From NCBI GenBank assembly GCA_012522795.1, contig JAAYJT010000075.1, positions 1 to 39,177 on the forward strand: a stretch of 39,177 bases of DNA, read 5' to 3'. Source of the stretch: Bacteroidales bacterium (GTDB lineage Bacteria > Bacteroidota > Bacteroidia > Bacteroidales > JAAYJT01). The stretch's first letter is position 1. Each line of letters begins with the position of its first letter. Made by a program: the position numbers and the translations under genes. This document shows, in pieces, positions 30,789 through 38,968 of this stretch. Below the pieces are notes generated by a model that was not told where the DNA came from, did not search any database, and was given only the letters and a program-made list of their open reading frames with translations.

Positions 30789-31274
30789 ATGACAATAGCA
30801 GAATACAATTCATGTGTTGATAGTTTTGCCGACGGAGTGTATCGTTTCATCCTCAAAAGCCTTGATGATGAGGAACTGGCCCGAGATGTTGTTCAAGAAT
30901 CGTTTACACGGTTGTGGGAAAGGCGAAAGGATGTAAAGAGTGAAAAAGCGAAATCGTACCTGTTTACTACAGCCTATCATACAATGATTGATACAATAAG
31001 AAAAGAAAAAAGGCAAACCAGACTTGAAGATTATCATATATCAGAAATGATTTTTGAGTCTTCTGCAATTGATCTCAAAGCTGTATTGAATGAAGCCGTT
31101 GATAAACTTCCTGAAATACAAAAATCAGTTGTAATGCTAAGAGATTACGAAGGCTACAGTTATAAGGAGATCGGGCAGATAACTGGTTTGAACGAATCGC
31201 AGGTCAAGGTTTATATCTATAGGGCAAGAGTTTTTTTAAAGAATTATATTGGTAGTTTGCATAATGTAATTTGA
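30789..31274 (+). CDS. ECF-type RNA polymerase sigma factor
   Basis: 161 residues, sigma-70 regions 2 and 4 only. Region 2 spans about 8-72, with DDEELARDVVQESFTRLWER and the following SYLFTTAYHTMIDTIRKEK. Region 4 spans about 100-155, with VDKLPEIQKSVVMLRDYEGY and the helix-turn-helix SYKEIGQITGLNESQVKVYI. No extra C-terminal domain. Its stop overlaps the edge of the next gene, which encodes a membrane anti-sigma-like protein, so sigma and regulator are likely co-translated. By family logic the sigma factor is held inactive at the membrane until an envelope signal releases it. Targets are not visible beyond its own operon. Confidence 0.93.
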   Translation: MTIAEYNSCVDSFADGVYRFILKSLDDEELARDVVQESFTRLWERRKDVKSEKAKSYLFTTAYHTMIDTIRKEKRQTRLEDYHISEMIFESSAIDLKAVLNEAVDKLPEIQKSVVMLRDYEGYSYKEIGQITGLNESQVKVYIYRARVFLKNYIGSLHNVI

Positions 31275-31276
31275 AA

Positions 31277-32425
31277 ATGACAGAAATCAATTATAATAAT
31301 TACGAGGCTTTTTTCCTCGATTATCTTGAAGGAAGGCTAAGCCAACGGCAGATTGATAAACTCATAGCGTTTGTTGATTCACACCCTGAGTTAAAAGATG
31401 AGTTCAAGAGCCTTGAATTTGTGAAGCTTATACCTGATGAATCAATAAGTTTTAAAGGAAAAGAAATGCTTAAAAAGCAGTCTGTAATATCTGTAGGCAA
31501 CATGAATGAGCAAAATTATGAGGAAGTTTTTGTAGCTGCTTTTGAGAAGGATCTTTCTGAAATACAAAGCCTTGAACTTAACCAGTTTCTAGATAAAAAC
31601 CCGGCTTTGAGAAAAGAATTCAACCTTATTGGGAAAAGCCGTTTATCGCCTGATACCAGTATTGTATATCCAGATAAGGAGAGTTTAAAGAAAACTCTGA
31701 TAGTACCATTTGCATCGAGGTTGTTTTATTATGGAGTTGCCGCTGCAGCAATACTCCTGCTGCTTTTAGCTTTAAAATTCATTTTTATTCCTTCAGCACC
31801 AGACAAAGAGAATAATTTATTTACTGAAAATCCTGTTGAAAATAAAGTTATAGAAACCCCAAAGGACATCCCTCTTATTCAGGAACCTGAAATAAAAACT
31901 GAAAAACTTCATGATCCCGGCAAAAAGACCTTACTAGCTGAAGTTAAAAAAGCAGAAAAAAGTGAGGATGAACCTTTTTCTAAATCCCAGGCTAATGCAC
32001 AGCTTCCTGTAAAAGTGGAAAATATTGGCACCATGAGTACATTGTCAGCAATAATCAATATTGAGAATAATAGAATAGTTGCAAATCACAGTTATTATTT
32101 CTCTGAAAATTTTAACGATTTAGCTATTGCTCAACAAATACGCCATGCCGATGCTCCAGAGAAAGATTTTAATGCTGGTCGTCTTTTAGCTCAAGGTTCG
32201 GCAGTTATTAATGAAGTGTTCAAACCCGAAGGAAAAGAACGTAATCTCATGCCCGGCAAGAATGAATTATTGAAGATTGCTAATATTGGGATTCAGGGAT
32301 TTGCTTGGTTAACAGGTGCTGATATAGAATTGCGTAAAGAAAAGGATGAAAATGGCAATATCATATCATATGCTTTTGAAAGCCAGTCGTTTCGGATCAA
32401 CCAGAATCTGAATAAAAATAATTAA
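31277..32425 (+). CDS. Membrane-anchored anti-sigma-like protein with duplicated N-terminal domain
   Basis: 382 residues from the ATG at 31277, 2 bp after the sigma stop; an in-frame TTG at 31271 would overlap it. The cytoplasmic part holds two similar segments of about 60 residues: one starting NYNNYEAFFLDYLEGRLS with SHPELKDEF, the other starting NEQNYEEVFVAAFEKDLS with KNPALRKEF. One transmembrane helix follows (about 149-171, LFYYGVAAAAILLLLLALKF), then a hydrophilic, Glu/Lys-rich external region of about 210 residues. No zinc-finger His/Cys motif is seen. Position next to an ECF sigma gene and topology support an anti-sigma role; it was not matched to a named family. The duplication is unusual enough to note. 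Confidence 0.75.
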   Translation: MTEINYNNYEAFFLDYLEGRLSQRQIDKLIAFVDSHPELKDEFKSLEFVKLIPDESISFKGKEMLKKQSVISVGNMNEQNYEEVFVAAFEKDLSEIQSLELNQFLDKNPALRKEFNLIGKSRLSPDTSIVYPDKESLKKTLIVPFASRLFYYGVAAAAILLLLLALKFIFIPSAPDKENNLFTENPVENKVIETPKDIPLIQEPEIKTEKLHDPGKKTLLAEVKKAEKSEDEPFSKSQANAQLPVKVENIGTMSTLSAIINIENNRIVANHSYYFSENFNDLAIAQQIRHADAPEKDFNAGRLLAQGSAVINEVFKPEGKERNLMPGKNELLKIANIGIQGFAWLTGADIELRKEKDENGNIISYAFESQSFRINQNLNKNN

Positions 32426-32536
32426 TACTCCCTTCAGTATTAATTATTAACATTTTCATTAAAAACTTCCTGTAACAAAAGATTGAGTATTTCCGTCATA
32501 ATGATGTTAAAAGAAACTTATTAAAAATTTTTGCTC

Positions 32537-34081
32537 ATGAAAACATTTTTTAAACAAACCGCTTTTTTCTTATTCCTGCTTCCCGGACTTATTTTTGCTA
32601 CTGTAGCCAGTGCGCAGAAGTCTGGCAAAGGCAACAAGAATGTTATTAAAGTTGACCATGAGGTTAATAATTTTTCAGCTATCAAGGTTAGCTCTGCATT
32701 TAATGTCATTGTTGAGAAATATGATTCCCCGCTTGTTAAAATTGAAACAGACGAAAATTTACAAAACCAGATTACAGTTGTAGTTGATAATGGAATACTT
32801 ATAATAGGTTCGACAGGAATCTCAAATCCCAGTGCACTTAATGCATATGTTTTTTATACAAGTCTTGTTTCGGCTGATATTAGCAGTGCTGCCACTTTAA
32901 AAAGCTCAGGACCCATTGTAGCCGATCAATTTTCACTCTCTGTTTCAGGTGCAGCACAAGCCAATACCGAATTTGATGTTGAGCAGCTTGATTCTAATAT
33001 CTCGGGTGCTTCCACTGTTAAAATCAAAGGTAAGGCTAATTTGCACAATACTGAAGTAAGTGGCGCATCAGGACTTAACGCTGTTAACCTCCTTACTTCG
33101 GTTACAAAAGCAAAGGTGAGTGGTGCTGCCAAAGCAAAAGTTACTGCTTCTGATAAGATTGATTGCGATATAAGCGGAGCAGCTAGACTTGAGTATTTTA
33201 ACGGTAAATCTGTTGTGAGTGCAGGGAAGATCGGAAAATACAGCATATATGTTGACGAGGATATCAATATTGATTCTCTTAACTATGTTGATGTTCGATC
33301 GTCAGAATACAGAGATTCGGTTCATGTTAGAATAGGTAACCTTGAGATTGAAGTTTATGACGGAGATAATACACGGGTAAGAATTGGCAATGCTCAGCTC
33401 GAAGTTGATGAATCAGGAAAAGTTGCATTTAAAAAGGGAGAAAAGAAATCAAAATTCAATGGACACTGGGCTGGTTTTGACATGGGAATCAATGGATATA
33501 TCACACCCGGAGGCAAGCTTAGTGTACCAAATGAATATTCTTTCCTCGATTTGCGTTACGAAAAAGCAATCAATGTGCAGATCAATGTATTTGAACAAAA
33601 TTTTGCGCTGGCCGGCAATAAATTCGGACTGGTTACAGGTTTGGGTTTGGAATGGAATAATTACAGGTTTTACAATGATGTAAAATTAGACATATCAAAG
33701 GATAAAATTGCCTATATTCCACAGGAAGGCATAAAATCAACCAAAAGTAAGCTTACTGTACAGCACCTGAATGTCCCATTATTTTTTGAATACCAGACAA
33801 ATTCAAAAAACAATATTAATAGCTTTCATATCTCTGCTGGTGTTATGGGTGGTGTAAGAATAGGCTCACATTCAAAGAATGTACATGAGAACGGAGGTCG
33901 CCGTAAGGAAAAACAAAGAGATGATTTTTATCTTAATCCTCTGAGCCTTGATATTATGCTCAGAGTTGGATGGGGAAAACTGAATTTATATGGTAATTAT
34001 TCGTTGCTGCCACTTTTCCGTGAAAACAGAGGACCTGAATTATACCCATTTTCAGTTGGGATCACAGTCTTATCGTTTTAA
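32537..34081 (+). CDS. GIN-domain (DUF2807) protein fused to an outer-membrane beta-barrel
   Basis: 514 residues from ATG 32537; an in-frame TTG six bases earlier is less likely. The signal peptide ends in TVASA before QKSG. The head GIN/DUF2807 domain (about 35-230) begins VNNFSAIKVSSAFNVIVEK and carries about six evenly spaced SGA-type turns (SSAATLK, SGAAQAN, SGASTVK, SGASGLN, SGAAKAK, SGAARLE), as in a parallel beta-helix. After a charged linker (about 280-310), the last 200 residues look like a small outer-membrane barrel (GFDMGINGYITPGG... ending YPFSVGITVLSF). It lies about 110 bp after the anti-sigma-like gene and is plausibly the operon's effector or envelope sensor. Function is unknown. 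Confidence 0.82.
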   Translation: MKTFFKQTAFFLFLLPGLIFATVASAQKSGKGNKNVIKVDHEVNNFSAIKVSSAFNVIVEKYDSPLVKIETDENLQNQITVVVDNGILIIGSTGISNPSALNAYVFYTSLVSADISSAATLKSSGPIVADQFSLSVSGAAQANTEFDVEQLDSNISGASTVKIKGKANLHNTEVSGASGLNAVNLLTSVTKAKVSGAAKAKVTASDKIDCDISGAARLEYFNGKSVVSAGKIGKYSIYVDEDINIDSLNYVDVRSSEYRDSVHVRIGNLEIEVYDGDNTRVRIGNAQLEVDESGKVAFKKGEKKSKFNGHWAGFDMGINGYITPGGKLSVPNEYSFLDLRYEKAINVQINVFEQNFALAGNKFGLVTGLGLEWNNYRFYNDVKLDISKDKIAYIPQEGIKSTKSKLTVQHLNVPLFFEYQTNSKNNINSFHISAGVMGGVRIGSHSKNVHENGGRRKEKQRDDFYLNPLSLDIMLRVGWGKLNLYGNYSLLPLFRENRGPELYPFSVGITVLSF

Positions 34082-34189: not shown

Positions 34190-34930
34190 ATGGCAGGTCA
34201 CAGTAAATGGTCAACAATTAAAAGGAAAAAAGGAGCTATGGATGCCAGACGCTCAAAGATGTTTTCAAAGATTATTAAGGAAATAAGTATTGCCGTTAAA
34301 GAAAGTGGCCCTGACCCGGATAGCAATCCACGACTCCGGCTGGCAATTGCTAATGCTAAAGGAGTTAACATGCCTAAAGATAATGTTAGCAGGGCAATAA
34401 ATAAAGCTTCTGATAAAGATTCAGAAAGCTTTGTTGAAACCACCTACGAAGGTTATGCACCTAACGGTATAGCCTTATATATTGAGTGTACTACCGATAA
34501 TCTCCAGCGAACAGTTGCTAATGTCAGATCATATTTTAATAAATTTGGCGGAAACCTTGGTACTAATGGTTCATTGAGTTTTCTTTTTGATCGCAAAGGT
34601 GTTTTCACTGTTCCCAAAGCTGATATTGACCAGGATACTTTTGAAATGGAACTTATTGATGCAGGTGCTGAAGAAATTGAACTTGAAGAAGGGTTTTTTA
34701 CAGTTACCACTGCTATGGAAGACTTTGGCTCAATGATGAAAAAGCTTGAAGAGTTAGGCGTAGAACCTGAAAATGCTTCACTTCAGCGTATCCCTAAAGA
34801 AACCATTACACTTGATTTGGAATCGGCACGAAAAGTGATGAAACTTATTGATATTTTCGAGGATGACGACGATGTTCAGAACGTATTCCATAACCTTGAA
34901 ATCACGGATGAATTAATAGCTGAGATGTAA
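34190..34930 (+). CDS. YebC/PmpR-family regulator
   Basis: 246 residues, the family length. The N-terminus MAGHSKWSTIKRKKGAMDARR is the hallmark of YebC (TACO1) proteins. NPRLRLAIANAKGVNMPKDN and the ECTTDNLQRTVANVRSYFNKFGG region (parts of domains 1 and 2) are also present, as is the acidic C-terminal DDDDVQNVFHNLEI. Members have been described as DNA-binding regulators and, more recently, as translation factors that help ribosomes through proline stretches. No ruvC or other usual neighbour is next to it. It has its own promoter candidate between two transcription units. Confidence 0.96.
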   Translation: MAGHSKWSTIKRKKGAMDARRSKMFSKIIKEISIAVKESGPDPDSNPRLRLAIANAKGVNMPKDNVSRAINKASDKDSESFVETTYEGYAPNGIALYIECTTDNLQRTVANVRSYFNKFGGNLGTNGSLSFLFDRKGVFTVPKADIDQDTFEMELIDAGAEEIELEEGFFTVTTAMEDFGSMMKKLEELGVEPENASLQRIPKETITLDLESARKVMKLIDIFEDDDDVQNVFHNLEITDELIAEM

Positions 34931-35052
34931 TCCTGGCTTTAACGGGAATACCAGGTTAGATCTGTGAAAAGCTACCGTAATATTTTTGAGGGCAAGTGAG
35001 AGGTTAAGAAAGGTTTGCGGGAATCAGCAAATCATGAATGGTTTTTTGCTTG

Positions 35053-35137
35053 TGCCCGGAACAGGACTTGAACCTGCACATCCTTGCGAATACTAGTCCC
35101 TGAAACTAGCGCGTCTACCAATTCCGCCATCCGGGCA
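35053..35137 (-). tRNA. tRNA-Leu (anticodon CAG)
   Basis: 85 nt, class II tRNA with a long variable arm. The acceptor TGCCCGG pairs with CCGGGCA. The D arm carries GGTAGACGCG. The anticodon stem CTAGT/ACTAG encloses loop TTCAGGG, giving CAG. The T arm contains GGTTCAAGTCC. CCA is not encoded. Confidence 0.95.
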
Positions 35138-35143
35138 TGAAAG

Positions 35144-35181
35144 AAAAAAATCAACAACTTGTTTTAATTGTTGATTTTTTT
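35144..35181 (-). terminator. Hairpin between the two tRNA-Leu genes
   Basis: A perfect inverted repeat: seven A then TCAACAA (35144-35157), a 10-nt loop, then TTGTTGA plus seven T (35168-35181). It has the shape of a terminator on either strand. It lies after tRNA-Leu(GAG) and before tRNA-Leu(CAG) in the transcription direction. Confidence 0.7.
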
Positions 35182-35196
35182 GTGTTTAAACTTCGG

Positions 35197-35281
35197 TGCC
35201 CAGGACAAGACTCGAACTTGCACATCCGTACGGATACCAGCCCCTCAAGCTGGCGTGTCTACCAATTTCACCACCTGGGCA
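35197..35281 (-). tRNA. tRNA-Leu (anticodon GAG)
   Basis: 85 nt, class II. Acceptor TGCCCAG/CTGGGCA. Anticodon stem CCAGC/GCTGG encloses loop TTGAGGG, giving GAG. Long variable arm; T arm with GTTCGAGTC. Encoded CCA is absent. Separated from tRNA-Leu(CAG) by 59 bp. Confidence 0.95.
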
Positions 35282-35552: not shown

Positions 35553-37103
35553 ATGTTCAGTACCAATGACATTGCTTTAATTAAGTTGAAGGGTATAAAT
35601 CCTTTAGTGGTTGAAAAACAGATTGAAAATTTCAAAAATGGGTTCCCGTTTATGCAGCTATTAGCTCCTGCCACAATTCAGCATGGAATACGCAGGTTGA
35701 CTGAAGATGAGGTGAATGCATATTCTCAGAATTATGAAAGTATTATTAAAGGTAGAGAAGTACTAAAATTTGTTCCTGCCTCGGGTGCTGCAAGCCGTAT
35801 GTTTAAATCTCTTTTTGAATTTATTGATGAAATTTCAGCTTCGCCTAAGGATGTTGATTTGCTGAAAGACAAAGGCTTTAACTCACCAGCTTATTTTTTT
35901 GACAATATCAAGGAATTTGCCTTCTATGAAGAACTTAAGGAAGCATTGGAAAAAGATGGGCTTCAGCTTGATGAATTGGTGATGTCAGGTAAATTTTTAG
36001 AAGTATTAAAGAAACTTCTTGATAGTGATGGATTGAACTATGCCAATCTTCCCAAGGCTTTGCTCAGGTTTCACCGCTACAGTGACGAGTCAGGGCGCAC
36101 AGCTCTTGAAGAACACCTTGTAGAAGCAGCTAATTATGCCTGTAATGACCAGGGTATGGCAAGCGTTCATTTCACTGTTTCGCCCGAACATGTTGATGAC
36201 TTTAAAAAACTAGTTGATAAGGTTCAGGCAGTTTATGAAGAACGGTTTGGAGTACGTTATGAAATTGAGTATTCAATTCAGAAACCTTCTACTGATACAA
36301 TTGCTGTTGACTTAAACAATAATCCGTTTAGGGAAACTGATGGAAGTTTGTTGTTTAGACCCGGAGGTCATGGTGCTTTGATTGAAAATCTGAACGATTT
36401 AAATGCGGATATTGTATTCATAAAAAACATTGACAATATTGTACCCGACCGCCTGAAAGAAACAACCTATCTTTATAAAAAAGCCATTGTTTCAATGCTT
36501 GTAGAACTACAGACCGAAGTGTTTGGTATGCTTCAGGCTCTTGAAAATCCTGATATCAGAAAGGAAAGGATCTATGACTTTTCAGTGTTCTGCAATGAAA
36601 TGCTAAATATCAGATTGCCGGATAATTTTAAGCAATTAAAGGATGAAGAGCAGATTGAAATTTTAAAAAAAGTTTTGAACCGTCCTATACGTATCTGTGG
36701 AATGGTGAAAAATGAGGGAGAACCCGGAGGAGGACCTTTCTGGGTAAAGGATGTCGAAGGAAAGATTTTATTACAAATAGTAGAGTCGTCTCAGATAAAT
36801 CTTGCTGACGAATCGCAACTAAAAATAATGCAGGCTTCCACTCATTTTAATCCTGTTGATCTGGTTTGCGGACTAAAGAATTATAGGGGGCACAATTTTA
36901 ATTTACCCGATTTTGTTGATCCTTCCACCGGTTTTATTGCTGAAAAATCAAAAGATGGCCGTAAATTAAAAGCACAGGAACTTCCCGGATTATGGAATGG
37001 AGCTATGGCTGACTGGATTACAATTTTTGTTGAAACACCAATTATTACTTTTAATCCTGTTAAAGTTATTAACGACCTGTTGAGAAAAGAGCATCTGATG
37101 TAA
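35553..37103 (+). CDS. DUF4301 family protein, possibly nucleotidyltransferase-like
   Basis: 516 residues, cytoplasmic, of the length and pattern of the DUF4301 family found mainly in Bacteroidota. Conserved segments: KFVPASGAASRMFKSLF (72-88), NLPKALLRFHRY (165-176) followed by RTALEEHLVEAA (182-193), RPGGHGALIENLNDL (269-283), and FIKNIDNIVPD (289-299). In order and spacing these resemble the glycine-rich loop, the PK-(x)-L-(x)-PF lysine motif, the GHG loop and the NxDN motif of UDP-sugar pyrophosphorylases (GT-A-like fold). That likeness is inferred by eye, not established. No sugar-metabolism gene is adjacent. It probably has its own promoter (-7 candidate at 35510). Confidence 0.85.
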   Translation: MFSTNDIALIKLKGINPLVVEKQIENFKNGFPFMQLLAPATIQHGIRRLTEDEVNAYSQNYESIIKGREVLKFVPASGAASRMFKSLFEFIDEISASPKDVDLLKDKGFNSPAYFFDNIKEFAFYEELKEALEKDGLQLDELVMSGKFLEVLKKLLDSDGLNYANLPKALLRFHRYSDESGRTALEEHLVEAANYACNDQGMASVHFTVSPEHVDDFKKLVDKVQAVYEERFGVRYEIEYSIQKPSTDTIAVDLNNNPFRETDGSLLFRPGGHGALIENLNDLNADIVFIKNIDNIVPDRLKETTYLYKKAIVSMLVELQTEVFGMLQALENPDIRKERIYDFSVFCNEMLNIRLPDNFKQLKDEEQIEILKKVLNRPIRICGMVKNEGEPGGGPFWVKDVEGKILLQIVESSQINLADESQLKIMQASTHFNPVDLVCGLKNYRGHNFNLPDFVDPSTGFIAEKSKDGRKLKAQELPGLWNGAMADWITIFVETPIITFNPVKVINDLLRKEHLM

Positions 37104-37336: not shown

Positions 37337-38968
37337 ATGAACAATGCTATTTTTCATTTTGATAATCCTGCGAATGAGCCGGTTAAATCGTATGCACCCG
37401 GTACACCCGAGCGTAAGACTATTTTAGATGAGCTTGACAGGATTAGTTCGGAGGTTATTGATATTCCGTTAATTATCGGAGGTAAGGAAATTCGTACTGG
37501 TGATACAGGTAATGTTGTAATGCCTCATAACCACCAGCACAAACTTGCAGTATATCATAAAGCAGGCGAAAAGGAAATAAAAATGGCTGTAGAAGCTGCT
37601 TTGAAGGCACATAAGGCATGGGCTGAGATTTCATGGATCGAAAGGATTTCAATAACGTTAAAGGTTGCTGAGTTATTGAGAAATAAATACCGTGCGCTTA
37701 TTAATGCTGCCAGTATGCTTGGCCAAAGCAAGAATGTTATGCAGGCAGAAATTGATGCAGCTTGTGAAACCATTGATTTTCTGAATTTTAATGCACATTA
37801 TATTTCAAGAATTTATGAAAATCAGCCACATTCAGAGCCGGGTATCCTAAACCGCATTGAATATCGTCCTATTGAAGGCTTTATTTTTGCAGTTTCTCCG
37901 TTTAATTTTACCTCTATTGCATCTAATCTGAATATGTCGCCGGCGGTAATGGGTAATACTCTTGTCTGGAAACCGGCTACTACTGCTATTTTATCGAATT
38001 ATTACCTTATGAAGATCTTTATGGAAGCCGGTTTACCTGATGGTGTTATCAATTTTATTCCGGGTCAGGGTTCTTTAATAGGTAATATCGTGATGAGTGA
38101 TCCTGATTTTGCCGGATTGCATTTCACCGGTTCAAATCGCACATTTAATCAATTATGGCAGGCAAGTTCAGCCAATTTGCCCAAATATCGTACTTATCCC
38201 AAGATTGTTGGAGAAACGGGCGGAAAGGATTTTGTTTTGGTTCATAATTCTGCCGGAGTTGATGAGGTGGCTACAGCATTGGTTCGAGGTTCCTTTGAAT
38301 TTCAGGGTCAAAAATGCTCTGCGGCTTCACGGGCTTATATTCCTGAATCGTTGTGGCCTGCGATCAAAGAAAGAATGTTGGAAAAACTTTCGCATATAAC
38401 TGTTGGAGATGTAAAGCAGTTCTCAAACTTTATGAACGCAGTAATTGACGAAAATGCTTTTAACAATATCATGGGATATATTAATAAAGCTAAAACTTCA
38501 ACAGATGCAAAAATCCTTCACGGAGGAAATGGAGATAAATCAGTTGGCTATTTTATCGAACCTACTGTTATACAGGTGACTGATCCTCATTTTGTTACAA
38601 TGGAAGAGGAAATATTCGGACCTGTTTTAAGTGTGTTTGTATATAAAGATAAGGATTTTGACAAAACCCTTGAACTGGTTGATAACACCTCGCCTTATGG
38701 ATTAACGGGGTCAATTTTTGCACAGGACAGAAATGAACTTGTTAAAGCTTGCCGTGCGTTGCGGTATTCAGCAGGTAATCTTTATTACAATGATAAACCA
38801 ACAGGTGCAGTTGTAGGACAACAGCCTTTTGGTGGAGCACGTCAATCGGGTACTAACGATAAGGCAGGAAGCTATCTGAACCTGCTGCGATGGATAAGCC
38901 CTCGTACAATTAAGGAAACTTTGATTCCTCCTACCGATTTCCGTTATCCGTTCATGCAGGAAGAATAG
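37337..38968 (+). CDS. pruA: L-glutamate gamma-semialdehyde (1-pyrroline-5-carboxylate) dehydrogenase
   Basis: 543 residues, the length of the stand-alone P5C dehydrogenase group found in eukaryotic mitochondria and Bacteroidota. ALDH features: VSPFNFTS with Asn190 (187-193), GETGGKDF with general base Glu293, nucleophile Cys327 in FQGQKCSAASRAYIP, EEEIFGPVLSVFVY, and the GGARQSGTNDKAGS end. It oxidises glutamate semialdehyde, from proline or ornithine, to glutamate with NAD+. No proline dehydrogenase domain is fused and no putA/prodh gene is next to it. The preceding 233 bp hold only a weak promoter-like pair (TTTTG at 37264, TATGCTTG at 37285). Confidence 0.95.
   Translation: MNNAIFHFDNPANEPVKSYAPGTPERKTILDELDRISSEVIDIPLIIGGKEIRTGDTGNVVMPHNHQHKLAVYHKAGEKEIKMAVEAALKAHKAWAEISWIERISITLKVAELLRNKYRALINAASMLGQSKNVMQAEIDAACETIDFLNFNAHYISRIYENQPHSEPGILNRIEYRPIEGFIFAVSPFNFTSIASNLNMSPAVMGNTLVWKPATTAILSNYYLMKIFMEAGLPDGVINFIPGQGSLIGNIVMSDPDFAGLHFTGSNRTFNQLWQASSANLPKYRTYPKIVGETGGKDFVLVHNSAGVDEVATALVRGSFEFQGQKCSAASRAYIPESLWPAIKERMLEKLSHITVGDVKQFSNFMNAVIDENAFNNIMGYINKAKTSTDAKILHGGNGDKSVGYFIEPTVIQVTDPHFVTMEEEIFGPVLSVFVYKDKDFDKTLELVDNTSPYGLTGSIFAQDRNELVKACRALRYSAGNLYYNDKPTGAVVGQQPFGGARQSGTNDKAGSYLNLLRWISPRTIKETLIPPTDFRYPFMQEE

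Follow-up and report, generated by a model that had tools for sequence, protein, structure and literature searches.

UGPases (Ugp1/UGP2, PF01704), UAP/AGX and USP are the closest described systems to the protein considered here. The nucleotide loop of UGPases is of the Gly-Gly form, whilst that of GlmU resembles the G-x-x-x-R-M stretch found in DUF4301 proteins. NadR, which enters the argument through genomic context, has a nucleotidyltransferase domain whose fold differs from that of DUF4301. For the Aspergillus nidulans UGPase (AnUGP, PDB 8c0b), the published description lists thirteen ligand residues, among them Glu307, which contacts the acceptor, and names the C-terminal oligomerisation domain of UGPases (PMC10470519). 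According to two further reports, 14 residues lead from L113 to K127 in human UGPase, where K396A, D253L and N251L leave 0.04 %, 0.06 % and 0.01 % residual activity, respectively (PMC5381698), and plant UGPase has a lysine in its SB-loop (PMC5832301). DUF4301 appeared in a single paper, in which one row of a table lists a protein of Prevotella ruminicola (PMC7035244); we found no other mention of DUF4301, and none of PF14134, in the literature searched, of which few subscription papers and no preprints formed part.

The DUF4301 gene and its surroundings

The gene under study lies in a 39,177 nt stretch of Bacteroidales DNA, referred to throughout as the window. It begins with ATG, contains no internal stops and specifies 516 aa, of which residues 4–514 are spanned by the PF14134 (DUF4301) match (E-value 1.3 × 10−220; 734 bits against a cut-off of 27). 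This is the only DUF4301 match in the source genome. The gene and its immediate neighbours are as follows:

34190..34930, + strand, YebC/TACO1 family protein, upstream neighbour
35553..37103, + strand, DUF4301 protein, predicted UGPase-like GT-A nucleotidyltransferase (PF14134; structural model; Foldseek and VIA-align matches)
37337..38968, + strand, aldehyde dehydrogenase, downstream neighbour

Upon clustering the neighbours of 130 DUF4301 loci, which have very unequal flank lengths and in some cases repeat a gene, neither the YebC/TACO1 gene nor the aldehyde dehydrogenase gene showed any sign of forming a conserved unit with DUF4301. The interval between yebC and the DUF4301 gene holds, on the opposite strand, a tandem pair of tRNA-Leu genes (anticodons cag and gag; 35052–35280, − strand). 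Further upstream (30789–34081, + strand) are an ECF sigma factor, a 384 aa protein and then a protein that combines DUF2807 with an outer-membrane barrel; the 384 aa protein had no Pfam match at an E-value of 0.001, and is possibly a regulator of the adjacent sigma factor. Neither the window nor the seven loci examined contained a riboswitch that reached the Rfam gathering threshold, and a weak NCBIfam match (E-value 0.049) to a pseudo-SAM family was disregarded. DUF4301 was present in 51 of the 296 genomes sampled from the phylum and in one of 14 control genomes, that of Bacteroides ihuae.

Predicted fold and relationship to UDP-sugar pyrophosphorylases

An AlphaFold2 model of the protein, generated from an alignment of 79 sequences (A1), had a mean pLDDT of 90.5 and a pTM of 0.89. 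When it was compared with the PDB using Foldseek we obtained 66 matches at an E-value ≤ 0.001, the best 50 of which were all UGPases, UAPs or USPs (top E-value 2.7 × 10−12), with moderate TM-scores (0.35–0.51 by query length) and a large rmsd upon global superposition. VIA-align, which served as a second look by re-aligning Foldseek's own matches, ranked yeast Ugp1p first (Z 22.5, rmsd 3.2 over 320 residues) and placed members of the UGPase/UAP/USP superfamily at ranks 1–48 of the 50 entries listed. UGPases aligned with the whole model at Z-scores up to 22.5, and UAP/AGX and USP enzymes shared the same fold at 18.4–21.2. GlmU came next (Z 16.9); bacterial sugar-1-phosphate nucleotidyltransferases of this kind have the core GT-A fold in common with DUF4301, but just 208 and 233 residues were aligned in the two such entries among the matches listed. 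The preliminary description of this DNA had proposed comparing a predicted structure with GT-A nucleotidyltransferases, and the outcome agrees with its expectation: the model has the catalytic GT-A fold of the UDPGP superfamily, of the UDP-sugar pyrophosphorylase (UGPase/UAP) type, along the chain.

At the level of sequence, searching the PDB with the single protein returned no nucleotidyltransferase, the match found being an unrelated flavoprotein (E-value 0.034), and a narrow profile likewise returned none, finding an unrelated AAA ATPase (E-value 2.4). A full-length profile of diverse members had the UAP 3oc9 as its best match (E-value 0.0045), as did a profile of the middle part (E-value 0.0062). 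Below 3oc9 were unrelated chains, EBP2 (E-value 0.2) for the full-length profile, and two Dandelion chains and an endoglucanase V-like protein (E-values 0.2–3.1) for the middle part. The C-terminal profile, searched against 177,635 PDB sequences, produced nine matches (E-values 0.012–1.2), all of them UGPases, which sets this end of DUF4301 apart from UAP and USP; in the alignment FNPVKTVNDLL lies over UGPase FLPVKTCSDLL, such that the catalytic FLPVK falls on FNPVK. Each of these E-values is weak alone, and we argue for the relationship because nine of nine matches agree with one another and with the predicted fold.

The UDPGP family model (PF01704) itself matched 12 of 37 DUF4301 members at E-values up to 10 (best 9.5 × 10−5), and was absent for the window protein in a Pfam search up to an E-value of 10. 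Upon scanning 61 genomes with the same model, one match fell inside a DUF4301 gene (genome G009; E-value 5.5 × 10−4, 18.5 bits against a cut-off of 22), whilst nine of the ten DUF4301-carrying genomes had no match at DUF4301. Separately, three genomes (L131–L133) contain a frame of 1114–1134 aa with a weak, partial UDPGP match (E-values 1.2 × 10−10 to 5.2 × 10−6); in G033 this frame adjoins a GalU-like gene (L171).

Conserved segments and the predicted active site

The preliminary description had assigned the protein to DUF4301 and picked out four conserved segments as those expected of a UDP-sugar-pyrophosphorylase-like nucleotidyltransferase, remarking that GHG followed by F-x-x-N-x-DN recalls UDP-glucose and UDP-GlcNAc pyrophosphorylases in particular. 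The assignment held, and the segments were located at exactly residues 74–85, 165–176, 269–280 and 289–299 of the translation. Their conservation exceeds chance, as they are enriched in invariant positions both in A1 (28 of 47 within the segments versus 63 of 469 elsewhere; Fisher P = 8 × 10−12) and in A2, which comprises 37 more diverse sequences (23 of 47 versus 42 of 469; P = 8 × 10−11). The resemblance of GHG and N-x-DN was also upheld, with 269–280 and 289–299 both aligning with the UAP 3oc9. As a proxy for the common pocket around which the preliminary description expected all four segments to cluster, alignment thus places two of them, whilst 74–85 and 165–176 are assigned through order and topology. 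Three C-terminal blocks absent from that description, at approximately Q408–Q414, F432–D436 and F500–K504, were equally conserved, and on sequence evidence these are the clearest link of DUF4301 to UGPases. The features concerned, in order along the gene, are:

35772..35807, + strand, residues 74–85, VPASGAASRMFK, resembling a nucleotide-binding loop; P75, A76, S77, G78, R82 and M83 invariant in A1 and A2
35808..36044, + strand, residues 86–164, mostly helical insertion (model helices) that separates the loop from the PK lysine
36045..36080, + strand, residues 165–176, NLPKALLRFHRY; P167 and K168 invariant
36273..36296, + strand, residues 241–248, S-x-Q-K-x-x-T-D; S241 and Q243 invariant
36357..36392, + strand, residues 269–280, RPGGHGALIENL, GHG motif aligned with NGHGGL of 3oc9; H273 invariant
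36417..36449, + strand, residues 289–299, FIKNIDNIVPD, N-x-D-N motif aligned with HNVDNIL of 3oc9; invariant
36711..36740, + strand, residues 387–396, NEGEPGGGPF; G392 and G393 invariant
36774..36794, + strand, residues 408–414, QIVESSQ; Glu411 at AnUGP Glu307 in the HMMER alignment to 8c0b; invariant
36846..36860, + strand, residues 432–436, FNPVD; Asn433 at AnUGP Asn329 and Val435 at the position of Asn331 (alignment, invariance)
37050..37076, + strand, residues 500–508, FNPVKVIND; Lys504 at AnUGP Lys403 (human K396) in the alignment to 8c0b; invariant

Ten of the thirteen ligand residues named in the AnUGP description appear to be kept in DUF4301, none of the ten varying in either the 79 or the 37 sequences. 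Three were placed by HMMER alignment to UGPase, four through 3oc9 together with a shared motif, and three by order or topology. For the first group, counting the alignment by hand pairs Glu307 with Glu411, Asn329 with Asn433 and Lys403, the catalytic lysine of the F-x-PVK motif of the UDPGP superfamily, with Lys504; the same alignment sets Asn331 against Val435. For the second, the alignments to 3oc9 position the GHG (Gly272, His273) and N-x-D-N (Asn292, Asp294) motifs, both common to DUF4301 and UGPase although aligned here against a UAP, and by shared motif these four residues would correspond to UGPase Gly227, His228, Asn256 and Asp258. His273 is thus the predicted phosphate histidine, and Asn292 and Asp294 the predicted metal or acceptor residues. 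The third group, Gly78, Lys168 and Gln243, was matched through order and topology only. The segment at 74–85 comes after a strand (E70–74) in the model and may be equivalent to the UGPase loop by order and topology, Lys168 is probably the phosphate-binding lysine (K127/K135 of UGPases, by topology alone), and Gln243 is a candidate base-binding residue, corresponding by order alone to AnUGP Gln198. Residues 387–396 may additionally form a sugar-binding loop, by analogy with the SB-loop of UGPases.

The remaining three ligands are not kept. Besides Asn331, which is Val435 here whilst the acceptor residues Glu411 and Asn433 are kept, these are, both by order, the loop leucine (P75) and the first glycine of the loop (S77). 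The loop, PASGAASRM, thus differs from its UGPase counterpart (in part from PMC10470519), and the UGPase arrangement of a Gly-Gly loop with the phosphate lysine some 14 residues further on (PMC5381698) is absent: DUF4301 has S77–G78 and then, if the equivalence by order is accepted, 93 residues from P75 to K168, of which ∼79 are inserted before the PK lysine. In addition, the DUF4301 chain ends soon after F-x-PVK, with the structural alignments to UGPases stopping at the end of the model, at UGPase residues 367–419. Given the lack of a PF01704 match to the window protein, the altered loop, the insertion and the position of the chain end, we regard DUF4301 as a UGPase-like relative and not as a member of PF01704. 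Moreover, because of the altered nucleotide loop, UTP should not be assumed to be the substrate.

The altered loop and the large helical insertion in the model would also fit a relative of the superfamily that is catalytically dead or regulatory in function. We consider this very improbable, however, as neither the 79 nor the 37 sequences show any variation at the positions assigned to phosphate and metal ligands, a constancy that a dead enzyme would not usually maintain. Instead, from the predicted UGPase fold and the presence of most catalytic residues we infer catalytic activity: DUF4301 probably couples a nucleotide to a sugar-like compound that bears a phosphate. The view of the preliminary description, that the family comprises UDP-sugar-pyrophosphorylase-like nucleotidyltransferases, is in this way supported by the predicted fold, by C-terminal matches to UGPases exclusively and by the ten ligand residues kept; the support extends to fold and enzyme class, and in part to mechanism. 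Its further suggestion, that the family makes or uses nucleotide sugars, may hold, although a genomic link to the salvage of nicotinamide riboside (vitamin B3) in one bacterial family hints at a different acceptor. As judged from model and sequence, it is likely that DUF4301 is an active nucleotidyltransferase related to UDP-sugar pyrophosphorylases, with hexose-1-phosphate or hexosamine-1-phosphate as its likely acceptor; with activity granted, we lean towards a sugar-1-phosphate in that role. In such an enzyme, the nucleoside triphosphate would dock on the GT-A sheet, up against the loop formed by VPASGAASRM, with a divalent metal held by Asp294 and the phosphates lined up by Lys168, His273 and Lys504. 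The acceptor, for which a hexose- or hexosamine-1-phosphate is the likeliest candidate, would then attack the alpha-phosphate through its own phosphate to yield an NDP-linked product and pyrophosphate, whilst Glu411, Asn292 and Asn433 would contact the acceptor hydroxyls.

Genomic context and the choice of acceptor

No neighbour was common to all DUF4301 loci among the 130 clustered, the largest cluster being represented in 25, and no genomic link between DUF4301 and sugar-nucleotide pathway genes was seen among the loci examined. The commonest neighbours, namely PnuC, a NadR-type kinase, an RF-1-domain protein and a TonB receptor, occur in one bacterial family.

The nine UGPase matches of the C-terminal profile raise a narrower proposal, in which DUF4301 serves these bacteria specifically as their UDP-glucose pyrophosphorylase in place of GalU. 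GalU over its cut-off is indeed missing from 39 of the 41 DUF4301-carrying genomes tested, and the window genome possesses GalE and NDP-sugar dehydrogenases with neither GalU over cut-off nor a second nucleotidyltransferase, termed X. GalU is, however, equally rare where DUF4301 is lacking (1/39 genomes, compared with 2/41 carrying DUF4301), such that replacement of GalU left no signal. Furthermore, 14 of the 39 genomes lacking DUF4301 have neither GalU nor X and still have GalE, and therefore presumably draw on another source of UDP-glucose. GalE (73/80 genomes) and NDP-sugar dehydrogenase (78/80) do not separate genomes with DUF4301 from those without by their presence. As GalU is scarce whether or not DUF4301 is present, and these 14 genomes have GalE but neither GalU nor X, phylogenetic profiles do not single out UDP-glucose, and we judge this specific assignment to be unlikely.

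Nucleotidyltransferase X is ∼330 aa in length (alignment A6; loci L155–L166 and L168–L170), and its best NCBIfam match, rmlA_long, fell below cut-off; in L155 it adjoins metK and ahcY. Within family f17 it was found in 0/4 genomes with DUF4301 versus 9/10 tested without, and within f35 in 0/4 versus 2/3, or 0/8 versus 11/13 for the two families together. In these two families X and DUF4301 are strikingly anticorrelated, as they may be if one displaces the other, but families f6, f22 and f48 hold both, and overall X was present in 21/41 genomes with DUF4301 and 25/39 without.

A different acceptor is brought into consideration by one family, f6, in which DUF4301 adjoins PnuC in 26 of 26 DUF4301-carrying genomes, compared with 0/25 in the remaining genomes that carry DUF4301. 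In 23 of these genomes PnuC also has an AAA_28 kinase next to it, which forms a single open frame with DUF4301 in 15, and both kinase and DUF4301 domains were recognized by Pfam in all four of the single-frame proteins scanned; in the other three genomes (G084, G154 and G289) PnuC adjoins DUF4301 and there is no kinase. This PnuC adjacency and kinase fusion in one bacterial family is a new observation. In loci L082–L130, those of f6 among them, the order is PnuC, ribosylnicotinamide-kinase-like AAA_28 protein, DUF4301, RF-1-domain protein and TonB receptor, the last two recurring downstream in 23 and 22 of the 130 loci, respectively. Flavo-1 RNAs were present in two f6 loci, which suggests that the family belongs to the flavobacteria. 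In one genome, G118, PnuC passes its equivalog cut-off, and the match of the kinase to NadR covers the ribosylnicotinamide-kinase half of the latter (TIGR01526 positions 164–322; E-value 1.6 × 10−33), with a score of 116 bits that lies below the whole-protein cut-off of 341, as is to be expected for half a protein.

With these data NMN joins the sugar-1-phosphates as a possible acceptor. DUF4301 would then be a GT-A NMN adenylyltransferase that, in f6, acts after PnuC import and ribosylnicotinamide kinase and is a non-orthologous substitute for the corresponding domain of NadR, which is likewise a fusion of kinase and nucleotidyltransferase of the kind seen beside PnuC in this one family; the nucleotidyltransferase is, however, N-terminal to the kinase in NadR, whilst DUF4301 is C-terminal to it. 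Consistent with such a role, PnuC is present in 39/51 genomes with DUF4301 versus 85/245 without. Among 61 genomes with a PnuC-adjacent kinase, the kinase was without room for the NadR adenylyltransferase in 30/31 with DUF4301 versus 21/30 without (P = 0.006, a value that ignores kinship), where room was judged from the distance that separates the kinase match from that of PnuC, and was checked by sequence in one protein. For one genome (G292) the gap is 569 and the frame just 235 aa; if counted as kinase-only, the second figure becomes 22/30. In four long frames the kinase domain follows closely behind PnuC, with gaps of 12–191 bases. Within family f10 the kinase stands alone in 4/4 genomes with DUF4301 and 0/3 without, the latter three being able to accommodate the other domain; one of these three encodes a kinase protein with an N-terminus that, by motif, we take to be of the adenylyltransferase type. 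This bias towards kinase-only genes fits DUF4301 taking the place of the NadR adenylyltransferase. As separate observations, the window genome has adjacent PnuC and AAA_28 kinase genes on another contig (L145; C37, 4826–5985), unlinked to DUF4301, and families f3 and f4 (e.g. L146, L147 and L149) include PnuC–kinase pairs without room for the other domain of NadR and without DUF4301.

Several findings nevertheless weigh against NMN. The linkage is missing from 25 of the 51 genomes with DUF4301, 12 of which also lack PnuC, and none of these 12 has NAMPT; as another source of NMN, the latter was present in 6/41 genomes with DUF4301 and 5/39 without. Kinase-only PnuC pairs also occur in 21 or 22 of 30 genomes lacking DUF4301, and three f6 genomes keep PnuC, the kinase and the RF-1-domain gene without it. 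NadD was found over cut-off in all 80 genomes tested, such that its replacement by DUF4301 was rejected, and the window protein matched no NMN adenylyltransferase sequence family in Pfam (E-values up to 10) or NCBIfam (E-values up to 1). Finally, most of the residues that hold glucose in UGPases are kept. We therefore regard an NMN adenylyltransferase as decidedly improbable, and continue to favour a UGPase-like enzyme acting on a sugar-1-phosphate.

Should the acceptor prove to be NMN after all, the final adenylylation step of NAD synthesis would have a second, unrelated fold. In either case DUF4301, a family with a function so far uncharacterized, gains a candidate enzyme class and a set of named, predicted catalytic residues, so that a single assay would suffice as a test.
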